Shown piece after piece: positions 4,396-29,322 of a stretch of 64,000 nucleotides of DNA (position 1 is its first letter; each line of letters begins with the position of its first letter). A program made the position numbers and the translations under genes. The notes beneath the pieces are model-generated. The model did not search any database and was not told the origin of the DNA. It worked only from the letters and a program-made list of their open reading frames with translations. This DNA comes from a virus, in IMG/VR virus record IMGVR_UViG_3300046616_000603, positions 1-64,000 of that record; one strand, 5' to 3'.

Positions 4396-4815
4396 TTATC
4401 CTTTCGTGATTTTCACTGCGCGGCCACCGCGCCACCGCCAGCCCGCTGCGATGACCTTGGTGCTGATCCAGTCACTCCGGCGCTTGTGATTCACGCGCGG
4501 CGGCGGCAGGAGATTTCCTTCCTCGTCCCACTGCATGTTCTCCACTTCAAAGAACTGCATCCAGTCATTGCGGGCGTCGCTCGCGTCCCACTCAGGCTCC
4601 CAGCCGCCGCAGTTGTAGATGCGGATTGGTACGCCGGCGATACGCTCCCAAGCGCGTTGAACATGCTTCGGCTGGCGCTGCATTCGGCGCCAGCCGCCCG
4701 GCGGGTCCATGACGCCCATGTCGGGGTCCGGCTCGTATTCACCCTCGTGGTGGCAATGACTGCGCAAAAGCTCCACCGCGCGCTTCGCCTGCTTCTTGTA
4801 GATGCGCGGGTTCAT
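4396..4815 (-). CDS. Hypothetical phage protein (139 aa)
   Basis: Trp- and Arg-rich soluble protein with motifs PPGGWRRMQRQPKHVQRAW and IRIYNCGGWEPEWDASDARN. No family is recognised. It begins at an ATGA overlap with the ASCH gene and is the second gene after the reversed membrane gene at 5216. It is an early leftward gene; no membrane segment or signal peptide is present. Confidence 0.7.
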   Translation of the reverse strand: MNPRIYKKQAKRAVELLRSHCHHEGEYEPDPDMGVMDPPGGWRRMQRQPKHVQRAWERIAGVPIRIYNCGGWEPEWDASDARNDWMQFFEVENMQWDEEGNLLPPPRVNHKRRSDWISTKVIAAGWRWRGGRAVKITKG

Positions 4816-5201
4816 GGCGCCGCAAGGCGATTAGGCACTTCGAAGAAGCCCAGCGCACCCTTCAGTGGCTGGAACGGCAGCGGCTTGGCGTCCCGCAGCT
4901 CGAAACCATACTTCCCGAAGAACCACGGTGACCGCGATGCGGTGATGCAACCGGTGATCGTGACCTTGCCGACGATCCCGCCGCGCTCCAGCTGCTCGAA
5001 TGTCGGCAGCCGGAGGTACTGCAGACGCTCGTCCAGCGCAAGCATCAGGTCGACGTCGTCGTATTCCTCGCGCGTCATGCCTTTGCTGGCGTGCACCAGC
5101 ACCTCGCCGCGCAGACGCGTCGGCCAGCTGCGGTTCTCGATATCTTTGTAGCCATTCACAATCAGCCACGCCCAAGGTTGGCGAATAGACAGTGCTTTCA
5201 T
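4812..5201 (-). CDS. ASCH-domain protein
   Basis: 129-aa ASCH (PUA-like) domain. The signature is clear: MKALSIRQPWAWLIVNGYKD, IENRSW, 'GEVLVHASKG' and 'GIVGKVTITGCI'. ASCH proteins bind or act on RNA or modified nucleosides, and some are ribonucleases or amidohydrolases. It starts 14 bp from a divergent gene at 5216, and its ATG complement supplies the TG of that gene's extended -10. The leftward promoter upstream must be read through the reversed gene to reach it. The exact activity cannot be inferred. Confidence 0.85.
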   Translation of the reverse strand: MKALSIRQPWAWLIVNGYKDIENRSWPTRLRGEVLVHASKGMTREEYDDVDLMLALDERLQYLRLPTFEQLERGGIVGKVTITGCITASRSPWFFGKYGFELRDAKPLPFQPLKGALGFFEVPNRLAAP

Positions 5202-5209
5202 GATAGTAT
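5201..5209 (+). promoter_or_regulatory. Extended -10 promoter of reversed membrane gene
   Basis: TGA-TAGTAT: the TG starts at the base opposite the A of the ASCH start codon. The -10 hexamer 5204-5209 ends 6 nt before the ATG at 5216, so transcription should start at or near the A of the ATG and give a leaderless mRNA. No good -35 is seen, as expected for an extended -10. Confidence 0.6.
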
Positions 5210-5215
5210 TTCCAT

Positions 5216-5899
5216 ATGAAAATTAATTGGACTAACGTTCTTCTGTTCGCCAGTTGTCTTGTGGTGGGCACTTTGCTCTTTGCTGGCCTTCAAATCGCCG
5301 TAACCTCGAGCACTCCCGCGACAACATATGGAAAAGCGGAGGTTGCATATTGGGTGCAGGCAATCCTGGCGTTCGCCACGATCTTCGTAGCGATTTATGT
5401 GCTCCGCGCGCAGGGCGACCACGCTGCAAATTTGATGATCCGCGCGGATGAGCGCACGCTTCGTCGCCGCGTCGACAGCATAGGCGCCATTCTTGACGAG
5501 GCTTGCTATCAAATTGAGCAGGTTGCCGAGGCGATTCATGGCACTGCCGTGAGAGAAGCAAAGGCACAAAGTGGAGTACTTGAGCAGCGTCAAGATGCGG
5601 ACGCTTATGTTCTTGCTGCGGTGAGTAGATTTAAAGGGAAACCACAGTTCGACAACATTATTCGGGCAATCGACACGATCCCCCTTTACGAAGTCGGTGG
5701 TCAGCAAATGGTGCGCGCGATATTCGATATTCGACGCGCATTGTTTAATTTCGATGCTCATATAGTGTCCGCTTGGAAGCAAAGTGAGGGGAAGATCCTC
5801 GATGGAGCCTTGTGGAATGCTGCATCGTGGTGGCCCGAAGTTGTTCGCGCGTCTAAGAGAGAGTTTGAACGAGCTGCGACGACGCTTTTTTCCGCCTAA
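5216..5899 (+). CDS. Reversed two-TM membrane protein (moron-like)
   Basis: 227-aa protein with two N-terminal membrane spans (about 7-29, LLFASCLVVGTLLFAGLQIA; about 45-63, YWVQAILAFATIFVAIYVL) and a long cytosolic helical domain. It reads against the leftward operon, begins 14 bp from the ASCH start and stops 11 bp before the next convergent gene. The topology and the W(V/I)QA motif at the second span match the gene at 6375, so they may be distant relatives. Its own promoter suggests expression in the lysogen, for example for exclusion of other phages; that role is inference. Confidence 0.8.
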   Translation: MKINWTNVLLFASCLVVGTLLFAGLQIAVTSSTPATTYGKAEVAYWVQAILAFATIFVAIYVLRAQGDHAANLMIRADERTLRRRVDSIGAILDEACYQIEQVAEAIHGTAVREAKAQSGVLEQRQDADAYVLAAVSRFKGKPQFDNIIRAIDTIPLYEVGGQQMVRAIFDIRRALFNFDAHIVSAWKQSEGKILDGALWNAASWWPEVVRASKREFERAATTLFSA

Positions 5900-5910
5900 G
5901 TTTGCGAGTC

Positions 5911-6360
5911 TCATGGTGAGGTGGTTTCTATTTGTAGCAGGCCGGCAGCCTCGGCATGCTCGAGCACTGACTTCCCGTTCGGAAGCATGATCTGGCCGAG
6001 GAACGCGCCTTCGAAGCTCAGCACGCCGATTTCGATCATCGTTATCTGCGACTTCACCCAGTCGCGCAGGATCGAGCAGACGCTGACCTTGGCCTGCTCG
6101 AGTGCCTTCTGCTCATGCTGAGGCCGGGTGGCCTTAAGGCGGCTCGAATATGGGTGCTCCTTCAGCCAGGCCGCCGCGTATCCGCGAAAGCTGGCGCGCA
6201 CCGACACGTCCGTGCCGCGATGCGTGAACTGAACCAGCAGGTGGCCGGCTTCGTTGTCGGTCATGTGGCCGTACCGGGCGCAGCCGAAGCGCGTCAGGAT
6301 CTTGCCGATTTCCTCCAGCGCGTTGGCGCCGCTGGTGGAGTTTTCGTATGGGAGGGACAT
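5911..6360 (-). CDS. Hypothetical phage protein (149 aa)
   Basis: Soluble early protein not assigned to a family. The N-terminal region ('EEIGKILTRFGCARYGHMTD' and 'VSVRASFRGYAAAWLKE') resembles a conserved hypothetical I recall near recombination genes in Burkholderia phages. It sits between two reversed membrane genes, each separated by a very small gap, so it is flanked by insertions on both sides. It depends on the leftward operon promoter. Confidence 0.7.
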   Translation of the reverse strand: MSLPYENSTSGANALEEIGKILTRFGCARYGHMTDNEAGHLLVQFTHRGTDVSVRASFRGYAAAWLKEHPYSSRLKATRPQHEQKALEQAKVSVCSILRDWVKSQITMIEIGVLSFEGAFLGQIMLPNGKSVLEHAEAAGLLQIETTSP

Positions 6361-6368
6361 GCTACAAT
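6360..6368 (+). promoter_or_regulatory. Extended -10 promoter of second reversed membrane gene
   Basis: TGC-TACAAT, with -10 at 6363-6368 and again exactly 6 nt to the ATG at 6375. The 24-nt block from the neighbouring CAT to the ATGAAAA start is nearly the same as at 5199 (CATGnTAnnATTTCCnT ATG). Leaderless transcription is expected. Confidence 0.65.
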
Positions 6369-6374
6369 TTCCTT

Positions 6375-7001
6375 ATGAAAACATTAATTGAGTTTTTTGG
6401 ACCCTGGTACATTCGCCTTTGTGGCTGTATTGCTGCCGGCATACTCTGGGTTGCCGGCTACAACTTAATTTCATGGGGCGCCGTGGAGGGCACCACTTGG
6501 GCCGCTTGGATACAAGCAGTTGGCTCGATTGCAGCAATAATCGTGGCCGTTGTCGTCATGAACACTCAACATTCGAGGGATCGACGCCAAGAGCAACTGC
6601 GAGCGCTTGAGCGCGAGATAAATTTCGCGCTCTCAGTCGAAAGCTTTGCCGGCCGTCTTGCTTCAGCTCAGCGCAACCTCGCGGCTGCGGCCAAGTCCAA
6701 TCAAATGAACAAAACGGCGATGACCTACCAGATCTCTGCTTTTGCAGCGCTTTCGCGCATAGGCGACGCGATTCCAAGTTGGGAAGCAGGCGAGGTAGTC
6801 GCAACATATCTCTTATCCCTACAGCAGAATTGCCATACCACTGCCGCCATTGTTGACACCGCTGCTATAGACCCACCAGACGACCTAGCCTTCTTCGCTG
6901 AGTCGCTAGACGCTTGGGCGAAAAAATCCGAGGACATCGCCCTGCAAGTTAATCGCCATCGGGTAATTAAGTTCGTGGAGAGGTCACGCCAACTGCGCTG
7001 A
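6375..7001 (+). CDS. Reversed two-TM membrane protein (moron-like), second copy type
   Basis: 208-aa protein starting MKTLIEFFGPWYIRL. It has two spans (about 14-33 and 43-61, AWIQAVGSIAAIIVAVVVM), then a helical cytosolic domain of about 145 residues. The start at 6375 was chosen over an upstream GTG/ATG because the -10 box is 6 nt away and the opening MK matches the gene at 5216. It lies against the operon between the 149-aa gene and rdgC. Sequence similarity to the 5216 protein is limited to topology and the second span. Confidence 0.8.
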   Translation: MKTLIEFFGPWYIRLCGCIAAGILWVAGYNLISWGAVEGTTWAAWIQAVGSIAAIIVAVVVMNTQHSRDRRQEQLRALEREINFALSVESFAGRLASAQRNLAAAAKSNQMNKTAMTYQISAFAALSRIGDAIPSWEAGEVVATYLLSLQQNCHTTAAIVDTAAIDPPDDLAFFAESLDAWAKKSEDIALQVNRHRVIKFVERSRQLR

Positions 7002-7032: not shown

Positions 7033-8502
7033 TTACCTCAGCACCTCGCGATATCCGTTCGACTGCATCGGTCCGACCGCTGAGCCCTCCATCGCCTCCA
7101 GCAGACGCGCCGCGCGGTTGTAGCCGATCTTCAGGTGGCGCTGTACCAGCGAGATCGACGCGCGCTGGTTGGAGCGCACCACTGCGACGGCCGTCTCATA
7201 TAGCGGGTCGGTGGCGCTGCCGTCGCCGGCTGGGACCGCCACATGGCCGACTCCGTCTACGCACGTCGAACTGCGCTGCTCGCGCACTGGCTCGTCGCCC
7301 TTGGCTGGCGGCAGGCTCGGCTCGATAATTTCGATGGCCGCTACAAGTAGCAGTTGCTGGGACTGCGAGCCGGACGGCAGGGCCTTGGCCAAGGCCAGCG
7401 CTGCCTCAACGGCCCCTACACTGTTGGCAACCATGTGTTCGCGCACTCGCCCGATCACCGGCTGAATGGTTTGGTCATACAGTTCGTTCAGCACGGCGCG
7501 GTGCATGTCGCGCGTCTTGTACATTTCGGCCGTCAAGCGGATGGCGCGCTCGACCTTCTGCTGGCCGGCGGCGCTGTGCTCGACGGCCGCACGTTGCACT
7601 TCAATGCCATCTGCTTCACCGCCCAGCGCTTCCACCAGGTCGGCCAGCAGATTGCCCAGTTCTCCGGCCATCAGCGCGAAGTCGCCATCGAAGCGCTCTT
7701 CGTCGTTGCGGCTGGTGATCTCGCGCTCGGTCAGCACGTCCAGCGGCTTGATCGATTTCACGGCCAGGCTCTCGTCCAGCACGAAGCTGATCTTGCTGTC
7801 CCACGTCATGGCCAAGCGCGTGCACTGCTTGCCGGCCTTGATGTGGCGGCGCACGTCGTCAGGATCTAGCGTGTGCTTTCTGTAGGCTACCTGCGCCTTG
7901 CTTTCGCCGGTGGCGCGCAGCGTGGCGTCCTGGTCGACCGTGAAGCCGGCCGGCGCTTCGTCGGTGGCCAGCCATTCGGTCATCACGCCCACAGGCGAGC
8001 GCTGCACGCGCAGGCTTTCCAGCGGCATGCGGTCGACCGCCTTCAGCAGCAGTTTGATCGCCTCGTCGGCCTTGGCCGGGCTGGCCGCGTCGACCACCAG
8101 CCAACCGTTGACCGGGTCGATCCACACCGGCGTGGTGGACTGGATACTGAACGCGCGCGGCAGCAGCTCGTCGGCCACGCGCTCTTTCAGTTCCTTCATG
8201 GCCTTCTTGCCGGGCGCGAAGCCCTGGGCTTCCTCCATCTCGGCCGCGCGGGCCTTCGCCACCTGGTTGATGACGGTATTTGGGAGCAGCTTCTTTTCCG
8301 TGCGCAGGAACAGCAGCATCTGCTTGTTGACGGCGTGCACAAGGCCACCGGCCGGGCGCGGCGCGTCCCAGCCTTGACGCAGCAGTTCGTTGCTGCTCGG
8401 TGGCGTGAAGGCCTGTGGCGCAAGCATGCTGGCCAGCGCATCGGCGGTCATCGCCCAGTTTTGCGGCAGGCGGTACACCTGCAAATTCTTGAAAAACATC
8501 AT
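7033..8502 (-). CDS. rdgC: RdgC fused to an FtsK gamma DNA-binding domain
   Basis: 489-aa protein. Residues 1 to about 310 match RdgC, a ring-shaped nonspecific DNA-binding protein that limits RecA: '[10 protein letters not shown]', '[15 protein letters not shown]', 'LLPRAF', '[15 protein letters not shown]', '[27 protein letters not shown]'-type ending. A linker rich in Ala, Gln and Pro follows. The last 60 residues are a complete FtsK gamma winged helix ('[11 protein letters not shown]', '[20 protein letters not shown]', 'GYREVL'), which in FtsK reads KOPS sites. E. coli RdgC lacks this tail. The true ATG may be the second one (8499), given AAGGAGG upstream. It is grouped with ninB, recT and the exonuclease. 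Confidence 0.9.
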
Positions 8503-19779: not shown

Positions 19780-20526
19780 CTACAGGCGGTCGCGAAAATT
19801 CTTCGGCGTGAAGTGAACTACCCGACCAATAACAATGCAGTCCGATCCTCGGCAAGGTACGGGCTTGAACTCGGCGTTGTCGGACGCGAGGTACCAGTCG
19901 CGGCGCTCGTACAGCAGGCGTTTGATAACAGCCTGACCCTCGTAGTTCATCGCGAACACGCCACCGTTCTTGCGAACTTTGTCTGCCGTGTTCACCACGG
20001 CGATATCGCCCTCGTACATCAGCGGCTGCATGCTTTCTCCCTTGACCTTGACCGCAACCAAGGCTGCTGGGTGAAGATCGTTTTCTTCGAGCCACTGGCG
20101 AGGAACGTGATGTTTGCCGCCTTCGTACTCCAACGGGTCCAGGATCACGCGATCTACCCCCGCCTGTACGGTTATGGAAACCATACGGATTTCAACGTTC
20201 GGTTCTGCAAAGTCTTCGTCATCCGTGACGATGCGCATACCTGGGATTTCTCCTGCAGCTTGCGATGCTTCGTTGATCTGGTTCGCAATGGTTGGGCTGA
20301 AATCAACAACTGCCACGCCAAGGCCGCGCGCGAAGGCTGTGGCTGCTTTGATGTTTAGTGGACGGCGGGCGAGAAGATATTGCGACACCATGCCCTGAGT
20401 ACCCAGCTCGAACTGAGAGCCAAATTCAGACTGTGAAATCTTCGGCTCTCGCTGGTCGAACAGCGCCTTCAGACGATTGGCGTCGTCTATTTGCCACTGT
20501 TCTAGAGATTTGGGGTCTGCTTTCAT
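19780..20526 (-). CDS. cI: CI/LexA-type phage repressor with S24 peptidase domain
   Basis: 248-aa repressor. An N-terminal HTH (about 20-70, 'SQSEFGSQFELGTQGMVSQY') is joined to an S24 autopeptidase domain with Ser165 (KGESMQPLMYEGD) and Lys202 (GQAVIKRLLY). Candidate Ala-Gly cleavage sites are A91-G92 and A122-G123. RecA-stimulated self-cleavage would induce the phage. Its -10 box (TATACT) is 6 nt before the ATG, so the transcript should be leaderless. It faces the YdaS/Cro gene across three operators. Confidence 0.95.
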   Translation of the reverse strand: MKADPKSLEQWQIDDANRLKALFDQREPKISQSEFGSQFELGTQGMVSQYLLARRPLNIKAATAFARGLGVAVVDFSPTIANQINEASQAAGEIPGMRIVTDDEDFAEPNVEIRMVSITVQAGVDRVILDPLEYEGGKHHVPRQWLEENDLHPAALVAVKVKGESMQPLMYEGDIAVVNTADKVRKNGGVFAMNYEGQAVIKRLLYERRDWYLASDNAEFKPVPCRGSDCIVIGRVVHFTPKNFRDRL

Positions 20527-20560: not shown

Positions 20561-20598
20561 CGAGCAATGCTATTGACTTATATAATAGCGGTGCTATT
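20535..20598. promoter_or_regulatory. Right operator array, three sites
   Basis: Site A (20535-20549) TATAGCAATGCTATT, site B (20560-20574) ACGAGCAATGCTATT and site C (20584-20598) AATAGCGGTGCTATT, the last identical to left-array site 2. Centre distances are 25 and 24 bp, the same as at 16219-16282. Sites A and B share the AAT centre, so there are two classes of site. Confidence 0.85.
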
Positions 20599-20600
20599 AT
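20573..20600 (+). promoter_or_regulatory. Rightward early promoter (PR-like)
   Basis: -35 TTGACT (20573-20578), 16-nt spacer, -10 TATTAT (20595-20600), then 6 nt to the ATG at 20607. Operator C covers the spacer and -10, and site B touches the -35. It should drive the rightward early operon, with a leaderless first gene. Confidence 0.75.
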
Positions 20601-20606
20601 TGCGGC

Positions 20607-20963
20607 ATGGATCTCAAAAATTACCTTGCAAACTCGGATACGACCAAAGCAGCGTTCGCTAGGTCGATTGGCGTCTCGGCTGCTCTGCTGCACCAGTGGA
20701 TCGAGCAAATCCGACCAGTCGCACCTCAGCATTGCCCGCAGATCGAAAAGCAAACCGCTGGTGCAGTGACGCGCGCCGAATTGCGCCCCGACGACTGGCA
20801 CCTAATCTGGCCCGAGCTCGACGTCGATCAGCAACGCCGCGCCACTGACCCAATACCAGAGGCGGGCCACGGCGGCCGCCAGCCTGCATGCCCACACAAC
20901 ATTCTCGATACCGTTCCAGTTCGTGCGGTAATCACACCAACCCCAACAGGGGAGAAGCAATGA
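20607..20963 (+). CDS. YdaS/Cro-type DNA-binding regulator
   Basis: 118 aa. The N-terminal HTH (MDLKNYLANSDTTKAAFARS, then 'SAALLHQWIEQIRPVAPQHC') and 'QIEKQTAGAVTRAELRPDDW' are typical of YdaS/Cro-like proteins that oppose CI in lambdoid switches. The C-terminal 45 residues are Pro/Gly-rich and probably disordered. There is no SD: the ATG lies 6 nt past the -10, so translation starts from a leaderless mRNA. Its stop overlaps the next ATG (ATGA). Confidence 0.85.
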   Translation: MDLKNYLANSDTTKAAFARSIGVSAALLHQWIEQIRPVAPQHCPQIEKQTAGAVTRAELRPDDWHLIWPELDVDQQRRATDPIPEAGHGGRQPACPHNILDTVPVRAVITPTPTGEKQ

Positions 20964-28876: not shown

Positions 28877-29322
28877 TGATGCGCCGCACTCCCATGAAGC
28901 CCGGCAATGCACCGATGAAGCGGACCGCGTTCGCGCGCAGCGAGCGCATCGAAGCCCGGGAGGTGGCGAAGACCACCACCAAGGTTGCCCGCGCACGCGG
29001 CCTCAAGTCCAAAGGCCCGAAGATGACGCCGATCCGCAAAGCCGCGCGTGGACAGGACTGCACGATCCAGTTGGAAGGCGTCTGCAACCGCGACCCGGCC
29101 ACGTCCGTGCTTTGCCACAGCAACGCGCTGGCGGACGGCAAGGGCATGGGCCTCAAAGCTCCTGATACTGCCGCCGCAATCGGCTGCAGCGCCTGCCACG
29201 ACGTGCTGGACGGCCGGCGCCCACGTCCAGCCTGGCTGACGAAAGCGGCCGTCGATTTGGCATTCCGCGCCGGCGTGTCGCTTACTCACCAATTTTTACG
29301 CATGAAGGGACTGATCGAATGA
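28876..29322 (+). CDS. DUF1364 nuclease-like protein
   Basis: 148 aa. A basic N-terminal tail (RTPMKPGNAPMKRTAFARSE) is followed by a DUF1364 domain: 'GQDCTIQLEGVCNRDPATSV', 'DGKGMGLKAPDTAAAIGCSA', 'CHDVLDGRR'. The Cys/His layout resembles HNH-type nucleases found in the nin region of lambdoid phages. Probably a structure-specific or recombination nuclease. ATGA overlap with the DUF1064 gene. Confidence 0.8.
   Translation: MMRRTPMKPGNAPMKRTAFARSERIEAREVAKTTTKVARARGLKSKGPKMTPIRKAARGQDCTIQLEGVCNRDPATSVLCHSNALADGKGMGLKAPDTAAAIGCSACHDVLDGRRPRPAWLTKAAVDLAFRAGVSLTHQFLRMKGLIE

Follow-up and report, generated by a model that had tools for sequence, protein, structure and literature searches.

The window analysed here, i.e. 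the whole stretch of 64,000 nucleotides, comes from a 70-kb virus record and carries an integrase gene at its left end (1-978, + strand). A left operon on the - strand contains the genes for RecT, a YqaJ exonuclease and RdgC, together with a 149-aa gene, an ASCH gene and a Lar-like gene. An S24 repressor is encoded at 19780-20526 (-) and a YdaS/Cro-like gene starts at 20607 (+), 3' of which most genes, including that for terminase, lie on the + strand. The host phage is a temperate RecT/YqaJ phage, probably of the Duganella/Massilia group; a Duganella-group host is suggested by the fact that the true matches in genome contigs of the block described below are Duganella.

Nested among three genes of this operon are two genes on the + strand, here called moron 1 and moron 2. 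Moron 1 (5216-5899, 227 aa) is divergent from the ASCH-domain gene (4812-5201, -, 129 aa; PF04266, Pfam E = 7.2e-07), while moron 2 (6375-7001, 208 aa) is convergent with the RdgC-like gene (7033-8502, -; Pfam RdgC, E = 1.2e-107), and the 149-aa gene, which is similar to phrog_17260, lies between them (5911-6360, -; PHROG E = 1.2e-11). At the convergent ends, only 11 and 31 nt separate the stop codons of moron and operon gene. Each moron is thus an opposite-strand gene with a predicted promoter of its own, nested in one operon, as in noncontiguous operons. The original prediction had these genes running against the early operon; the anatomy agrees, since the RecT/YqaJ/RdgC operon reads on the - strand from the S24 repressor region, and the expression itself is a prediction.

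Two proteins and their start modules

By hydropathy, both proteins have two hydrophobic segments (residues 3-33 and 41-67 in moron 1, 15-33 and 40-67 in moron 2) and share a W(V/I)QA motif, so that the two-span topology and the motif claimed for them at the outset are confirmed. Both match the profile of the family described below (E = 3.9e-52 for moron 1 and 1.3e-71 for moron 2, values that are to be read knowing that both sequences belong to the profile's own alignment), moron 2 as part of an MKTLIEFF subgroup. We take 6375 as the start of moron 2, as the upstream ATG at 6348 merely lengthens the frame. The description of the pair as a duplicate was, on the other hand, misleading: BLASTP between the two gives E = 0.022, with no significant similarity outside the motif. 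Tandem duplication of one gene was rejected, given that the two are alike only in this motif and that their nearest relatives differ; moron 1, for example, shares 47% identity with a gene from a different phage.

In front of the two genes lie the blocks CATGATAGTATTTCCATATGAAAA (block 1, 5199-5222, +) and CATGCTACAATTTCCTTATGAAAA (block 2, 6358-6381, +), both exact instances of one pattern. When the 64-kb window was scanned with CATGNTANNATTTCCNTATGAAAA, allowing up to 3 mismatches, these two were the only matches, and 100 shuffles gave 0. This bears out the claim of two 24-nt blocks, each with an extended -10 element 6 nt from the ATG and with the divergent start at the same distance. In particular, CATG-n-TAnnAT contains an extended -10 of the form TGnTAnnAT, which is TGATAGTAT for moron 1 (5201-5209, +) and TGCTACAAT for moron 2 (6360-6368, +), and in both cases 6 nt lie between the hexamer and the moron ATG, a spacing that is enriched in the family as a whole.

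What is more, the sequence of the block serves the other strand as well. Its first three bases, CAT, are the ATG of the divergent gene in reverse, and its conserved TTTCC is the GGAAA Shine-Dalgarno (SD) sequence of that gene, which overlaps the promoter at 5209-5213 (-) for the ASCH gene and at 6368-6372 (-) for the 149-aa gene. Because TTTCC and CAT double in this way as the neighbour's SD and start codon, we regard the block as a two-sided start module and not as a promoter only, with an extended -10 and a leaderless ATG on the + strand and an SD and ATG on the - strand. For the same reason, a cassette starting with it can adjoin an operon gene without removing the ribosome-binding site of that gene.

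An extended -10 element needs little or no -35 element, and transcription usually starts some 7 nt past the -10. With the ATG 6 nt after the hexamer, the transcript would therefore start on the AUG itself, and the moron mRNAs are probably leaderless: at the level of sequence, the -10 puts the predicted start of transcription on the AUG, and an SD is lacking. No promoter of the TTGACA/TATAAT type was found in the region of the two morons. A start of the leaderless type is also seen at the phage's own Cro/YdaS-like gene (20592-20609, +), where TGCTATTAT stands exactly 6 nt before the ATG, and a further CATGGTACGAT lies at 28878 (-) in the replication region, flanked by ORFs of 148 and 102 aa.

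Recurrence of the block and of the protein family

The original prediction proposed a search of other phages for the block followed by a two-TM ORF. The exact pattern occurs in 8 viral contigs, in 7 of which its ATG is the start codon of a two-TM protein that has the W motif, and the divergent genes next to it vary (the 149-aa gene, Gp37/Gp68-like, ASCH-like and others, names that outside the window reflect our reading of the sequences). Genome contigs hold two true matches, both Duganella, and three others that look like chance. Two looser patterns yielded 107 stretches; those in viral contigs that lie between two long ORFs (at least 150 aa forward and at least 40 aa divergent) belong to the two-TM family in 16 of 19 cases, and with loci from the protein search added the count becomes 26 family against 3 non-family. 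Half of the 16 family matches were new, found from the block alone, each with E < 1e-16 against the family profile. Matches in the AT-rich contigs L009 and L350 look like chance.

Two trivial explanations of the block were rejected. Chance is not compatible with its absence from shuffled sequences, its family-specific recurrence and the excess of the 6-nt spacing reported below. Nor is the block a property of the neighbour gene: across 113 loci of the two neighbour genes, those with the block in reverse have an antisense ORF and the others have ordinary SDs. Specifically, reverse blocks, picked by eye from the sequences, are present in 6 of the 113 loci (L163-L166, L187 and L196), each with an antisense ORF upstream. 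Four of these six ORFs, together with one in the related phage L197 before the 149-aa gene, are candidate ORFs with no similarity to the two-TM family, from which it follows that the start module is not confined to this family. In L163, L165, L166, L187 and L197, unrelated antisense ORFs upstream of the 149-aa gene have this CATGnTAnnAT type of start. The pattern suggests that the region upstream of the 149-aa gene is a hot spot for backward accessory genes.

To look at the proteins independently of the block, family profiles were built from the first members, and relatives were sought in phages and genomes. These protein-only searches returned a large prophage family of 172-174 members with the signature W.QA(I/V)G(S/T), present in the phages of those first members, in 16 of 75 genomes of the genus Duganella, in 61 of 294 genomes of the host family (about a fifth of the sampled Oxalobacteraceae), at a stricter cut-off in 12 of 349 genomes of the host order, and in 85 viral stretches; several prophages hold two or three members. 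An odd pair of promoters has, in other words, provided a signature by which a large prophage family, as yet without a name or a Pfam model, can be searched for. At 6118-6636 (-) of L003 we note a shortened two-TM gene, a possible pseudogene, where the family match continues past a TGA stop.

An exact TGnTAnnAT lies within 45 nt of an in-frame start in 92 of 172 unique members and is absent from the other 80, many of them in other hosts. The distance from this element to the start, which a script assigned and may have misplaced in some relatives, is bimodal, being either exactly 6 nt (n = 25) or 21-29 nt (n = 53). A spacing of 6 nt would be expected 0.03 times among the 172 members, a few of which came through the block search, which leaves some ascertainment in the 6-nt class; this class is also present in the genus and family genome searches, which used protein only. 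Among control ORF starts the spacing occurs in 39 of 9,851, and on inspection these 39 turned out to be members of the family listed with different locus ids, loci that the pattern itself had retrieved, and the window's own Cro-like gene. In the leaderless (6-nt) class, 1 of 26 members has an SD-like sequence before the ATG, versus 42 of 53 in the leadered (21-29 nt) class. For 48 of 56 divergent genes, SD-like sequence lies within the promoter or leader. Members of the leadered class (L114, L057, L063, L124 and similar ones) exhibit an inverted repeat, in which the bases just past the -10 pair with the SD region (e.g. TCGCACC...GGTGCG); it is also found where no divergent start overlaps, and the mean stem is 3.5 as compared with 1.4 in shuffles.

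Phage L197 provides an empty site. There, the 149-aa gene and the ASCH gene share an overlap, TAATG, and the SD is located within the upstream gene; in place of this junction, the window has about 700 bp containing moron 1, the block supplying the new SD. With such a start module, a backward gene can enter a tightly packed phage operon at no cost to the start signals of its neighbour. Moron 1 is thus absent from an otherwise syntenic relative, and both genes have a predicted promoter of their own, an extended -10 at fixed spacing. A terminator of their own, as expected of a moron, is missing: nothing convincing was seen in the short gaps 3' of either gene, and because of this read-through onto the antisense strand of the operon may occur, and it could even be what the genes are for. 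Our best reading is that moron 1 and moron 2 are separately acquired prophage accessory genes. The recurrence of the block before the same family, the varied neighbours, the empty site and the excess of the 6-nt spacing all support the original proposal of a transferable cassette that has a leaderless-type promoter of its own.

Exchange of the two protein halves

Going beyond the original prediction, which contained neither this nor the doubling of the block as the neighbour's ribosome-binding site, we compared 174 members pairwise, each split at the W motif, and found that the halves are shuffled independently. In 73 of 129 pairs with similar N-terminal parts the C-termini are at noise level, and conversely, of 50 pairs that resemble each other in the C-terminus, 14 are at noise level in the N-terminal part. 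In the MKT(L/I)IEFF group, to which moron 2 belongs, identity is 94% over the first 40 nt and falls to a near-random level in the tail. The alleles L280, L281 and L026, found at one locus, share 82-91% identity as far as the W codons and once more beginning shortly past the stop, with unrelated tails in between. Considering all pairs without conditioning on tail similarity, 5' DNA homology is lost inside the gene in 74 of 87, and 55 of these 74 breakpoints, in 13 separate clusters (pairs within one cluster not being independent), fall between 10 nt before and 70 nt after the W codon. The reverse case, homology that starts at W, is represented by L036/L008 and L124/L055. At the level of sequence, these comparisons show two units, the promoter with TM1 and the predicted cytoplasmic C-terminus, each exchanged independently of the other, with the W.QA.G(S/T) codons as the point of exchange. 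By the clustering of breakpoints in the family, the corresponding joint would lie in the W.QA TM2 codons at 5351-5416 (+) in moron 1 and 6507-6572 (+) in moron 2.

The family architecture is that of a predicted TM hairpin followed by a helical cytoplasmic tail. An AlphaFold2 model of moron 2, built on a 31-sequence alignment (mean pLDDT 77.7, pTM 0.51), is all-helical, with a hairpin, then a long helix, then more helices, and structure searches of PDB and BFVD gave no significant match. In polymorphic toxins and in the target-recognition domains of HsdS, a constant part is combined with exchangeable domains joined at a conserved segment. The moron family is similar in this, while differing from these systems in that its members are phage-borne membrane proteins in which no toxin domain or paired immunity gene was seen.

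Possible role in exclusion and alternative explanations

What could these proteins be doing? In our view, to which we would assign a probability of roughly 0.6, the backward morons in noncontiguous operons are lysogen-expressed, probably membrane-anchored exclusion factors of variable specificity. Namely, the moron promoter would be active in the lysogen, where the operon is silenced by the repressor, and an mRNA made from a -35-independent promoter and translated leaderless would give a membrane-anchored protein. On induction, transcription of the operon antisense through the moron would turn the latter down. The variable tail would, with moderate confidence, set which invader or which step is blocked, and an arms race may drive tail exchange, presumably helped by phage recombinases. 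Exclusion is the weakest step of this explanation, and it is suggested by location, topology, multiplicity and tail exchange. A more specific scheme is a combinatorial exclusion repertoire, in which a portable promoter-TM1 chassis is merged with the neighbour's ribosome-binding site and recombinases swap unrelated tails at W.QA.G(S/T), thereby changing the invaders excluded; this we advance only tentatively. What sets the specificity of prophage exclusion proteins can be tested directly by comparing natural alleles with homologous flanks, which vary in nothing but the tail.

Would the same architecture also be expected if the proteins acted on the host or on the phage's own cycle, for example in membrane stress, lysis timing, counter-defence or maintenance of lysogeny? 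This we consider rather unlikely. It is true that small toxins and holin-like proteins, too, typically have two TM segments, that other prophage accessory genes serve host fitness, and that no domain points to antiviral activity. No similarity to a characterised exclusion or defence protein was found in Pfam; in particular, neither window protein matches SieB (PF14163) or another Pfam exclusion family at E <= 1, and the 25 Pfam families listed for 31 family members include no exclusion family. That said, several members per prophage and unrelated tails on a common chassis fit variable specificity better than a housekeeping role, and while RdgC and Lar-like restriction alleviation genes do occur in the same operon, the morons run against it.

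A different possibility is that the block is mainly an operator, bound by a regulator of phage or host origin that these genes have in common, its likeness to a -10 being secondary. Indeed, 20 positions of the block are strongly conserved in the leaderless group, and every copy sits in a repressor-controlled prophage. Its variable positions are, however, those at which changes are tolerated in a -10 element, its conserved parts are accounted for by the -10, the SD and the start codons, and the leadered class keeps TGnTAnGAT with everything downstream changed, all of which makes a mainly operator role improbable. Antisense regulation, with the moron transcript mainly repressing the RdgC, 149-aa and ASCH genes in the lysogen and the protein secondary, would agree with the missing terminators and the closely spaced convergent stops, and yet the conserved TM hairpin and W.QA in long ORFs of more than 170 relatives indicate selection on the protein, and we deem this explanation quite improbable. 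Finally, a dedicated cassette-inserting recombinase might recognise the block or cross over in it, as the occurrence of the block next to different genes and the precise replacement of the spacer on the side of the neighbour's ATG could suggest; this is highly improbable given that no matching repeat was seen at the 3' end of the cassette, that leadered relatives lack the full block, that selection on the neighbour already predicts the precision at its start codon, and that the clear recombination joint is in the W.QA codons and not in the block.

How does the favoured reading of exclusion factors compare with known systems? A prophage gene antisense to lytic genes and with its own promoter is STMMW_20121 of ST64B (PMC7067206), which has in common with the window morons that an extra opposite-strand gene in a phage operon has its own promoter and putative expression in the lysogen (PMC7067206). 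Unlike STMMW_20121, the window morons have a promoter merged with the neighbour's SD and start codon, a predicted leaderless mRNA and membership of a recurring family with exchangeable tails. In S. aureus phage 80alpha, a noncontiguous operon in a prophage defence locus, Tha/Ith, balances prophage immunity (PMC11087260). There, the defence gene is in the operon and its inhibitor is antisense (PMC11087260), whereas in the window the putative exclusion gene is the antisense one; no homology between Tha/Ith and the window morons was seen. SieA and SieB of P22 and gp15 of HK97 are prophage-made proteins that act or are located at the membrane, as predicted for the morons (PMC10883804), which differ from them in having no Pfam match, a conserved TM chassis and swapped cytoplasmic tails. 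A limited search of the open-access literature found no paper on the moron family or the start module.

As regards relatives in the databases, no Pfam family covers the moron proteins, the matches to TPR_16 and SfLAP being weak and below the cut-off. The PHROG family phrog_33632, whose function is listed as unknown, weakly matches 18 of 31 family members, and in the window proteins the match spans the TM/W.QA part only. Among INPHARED phages neither window protein has a relative, and a 61-aa N-terminal query, an approximate one made of the L057 N-terminus and a generic extension of the motif, had Burkholderia phage BgManors32 as its sole match. In this phage (L407, 2492-3172), the two-TM open frame starts at 2492 and RefSeq places the start of gp35 at 2711, so that gp35 as annotated is without the membrane part.
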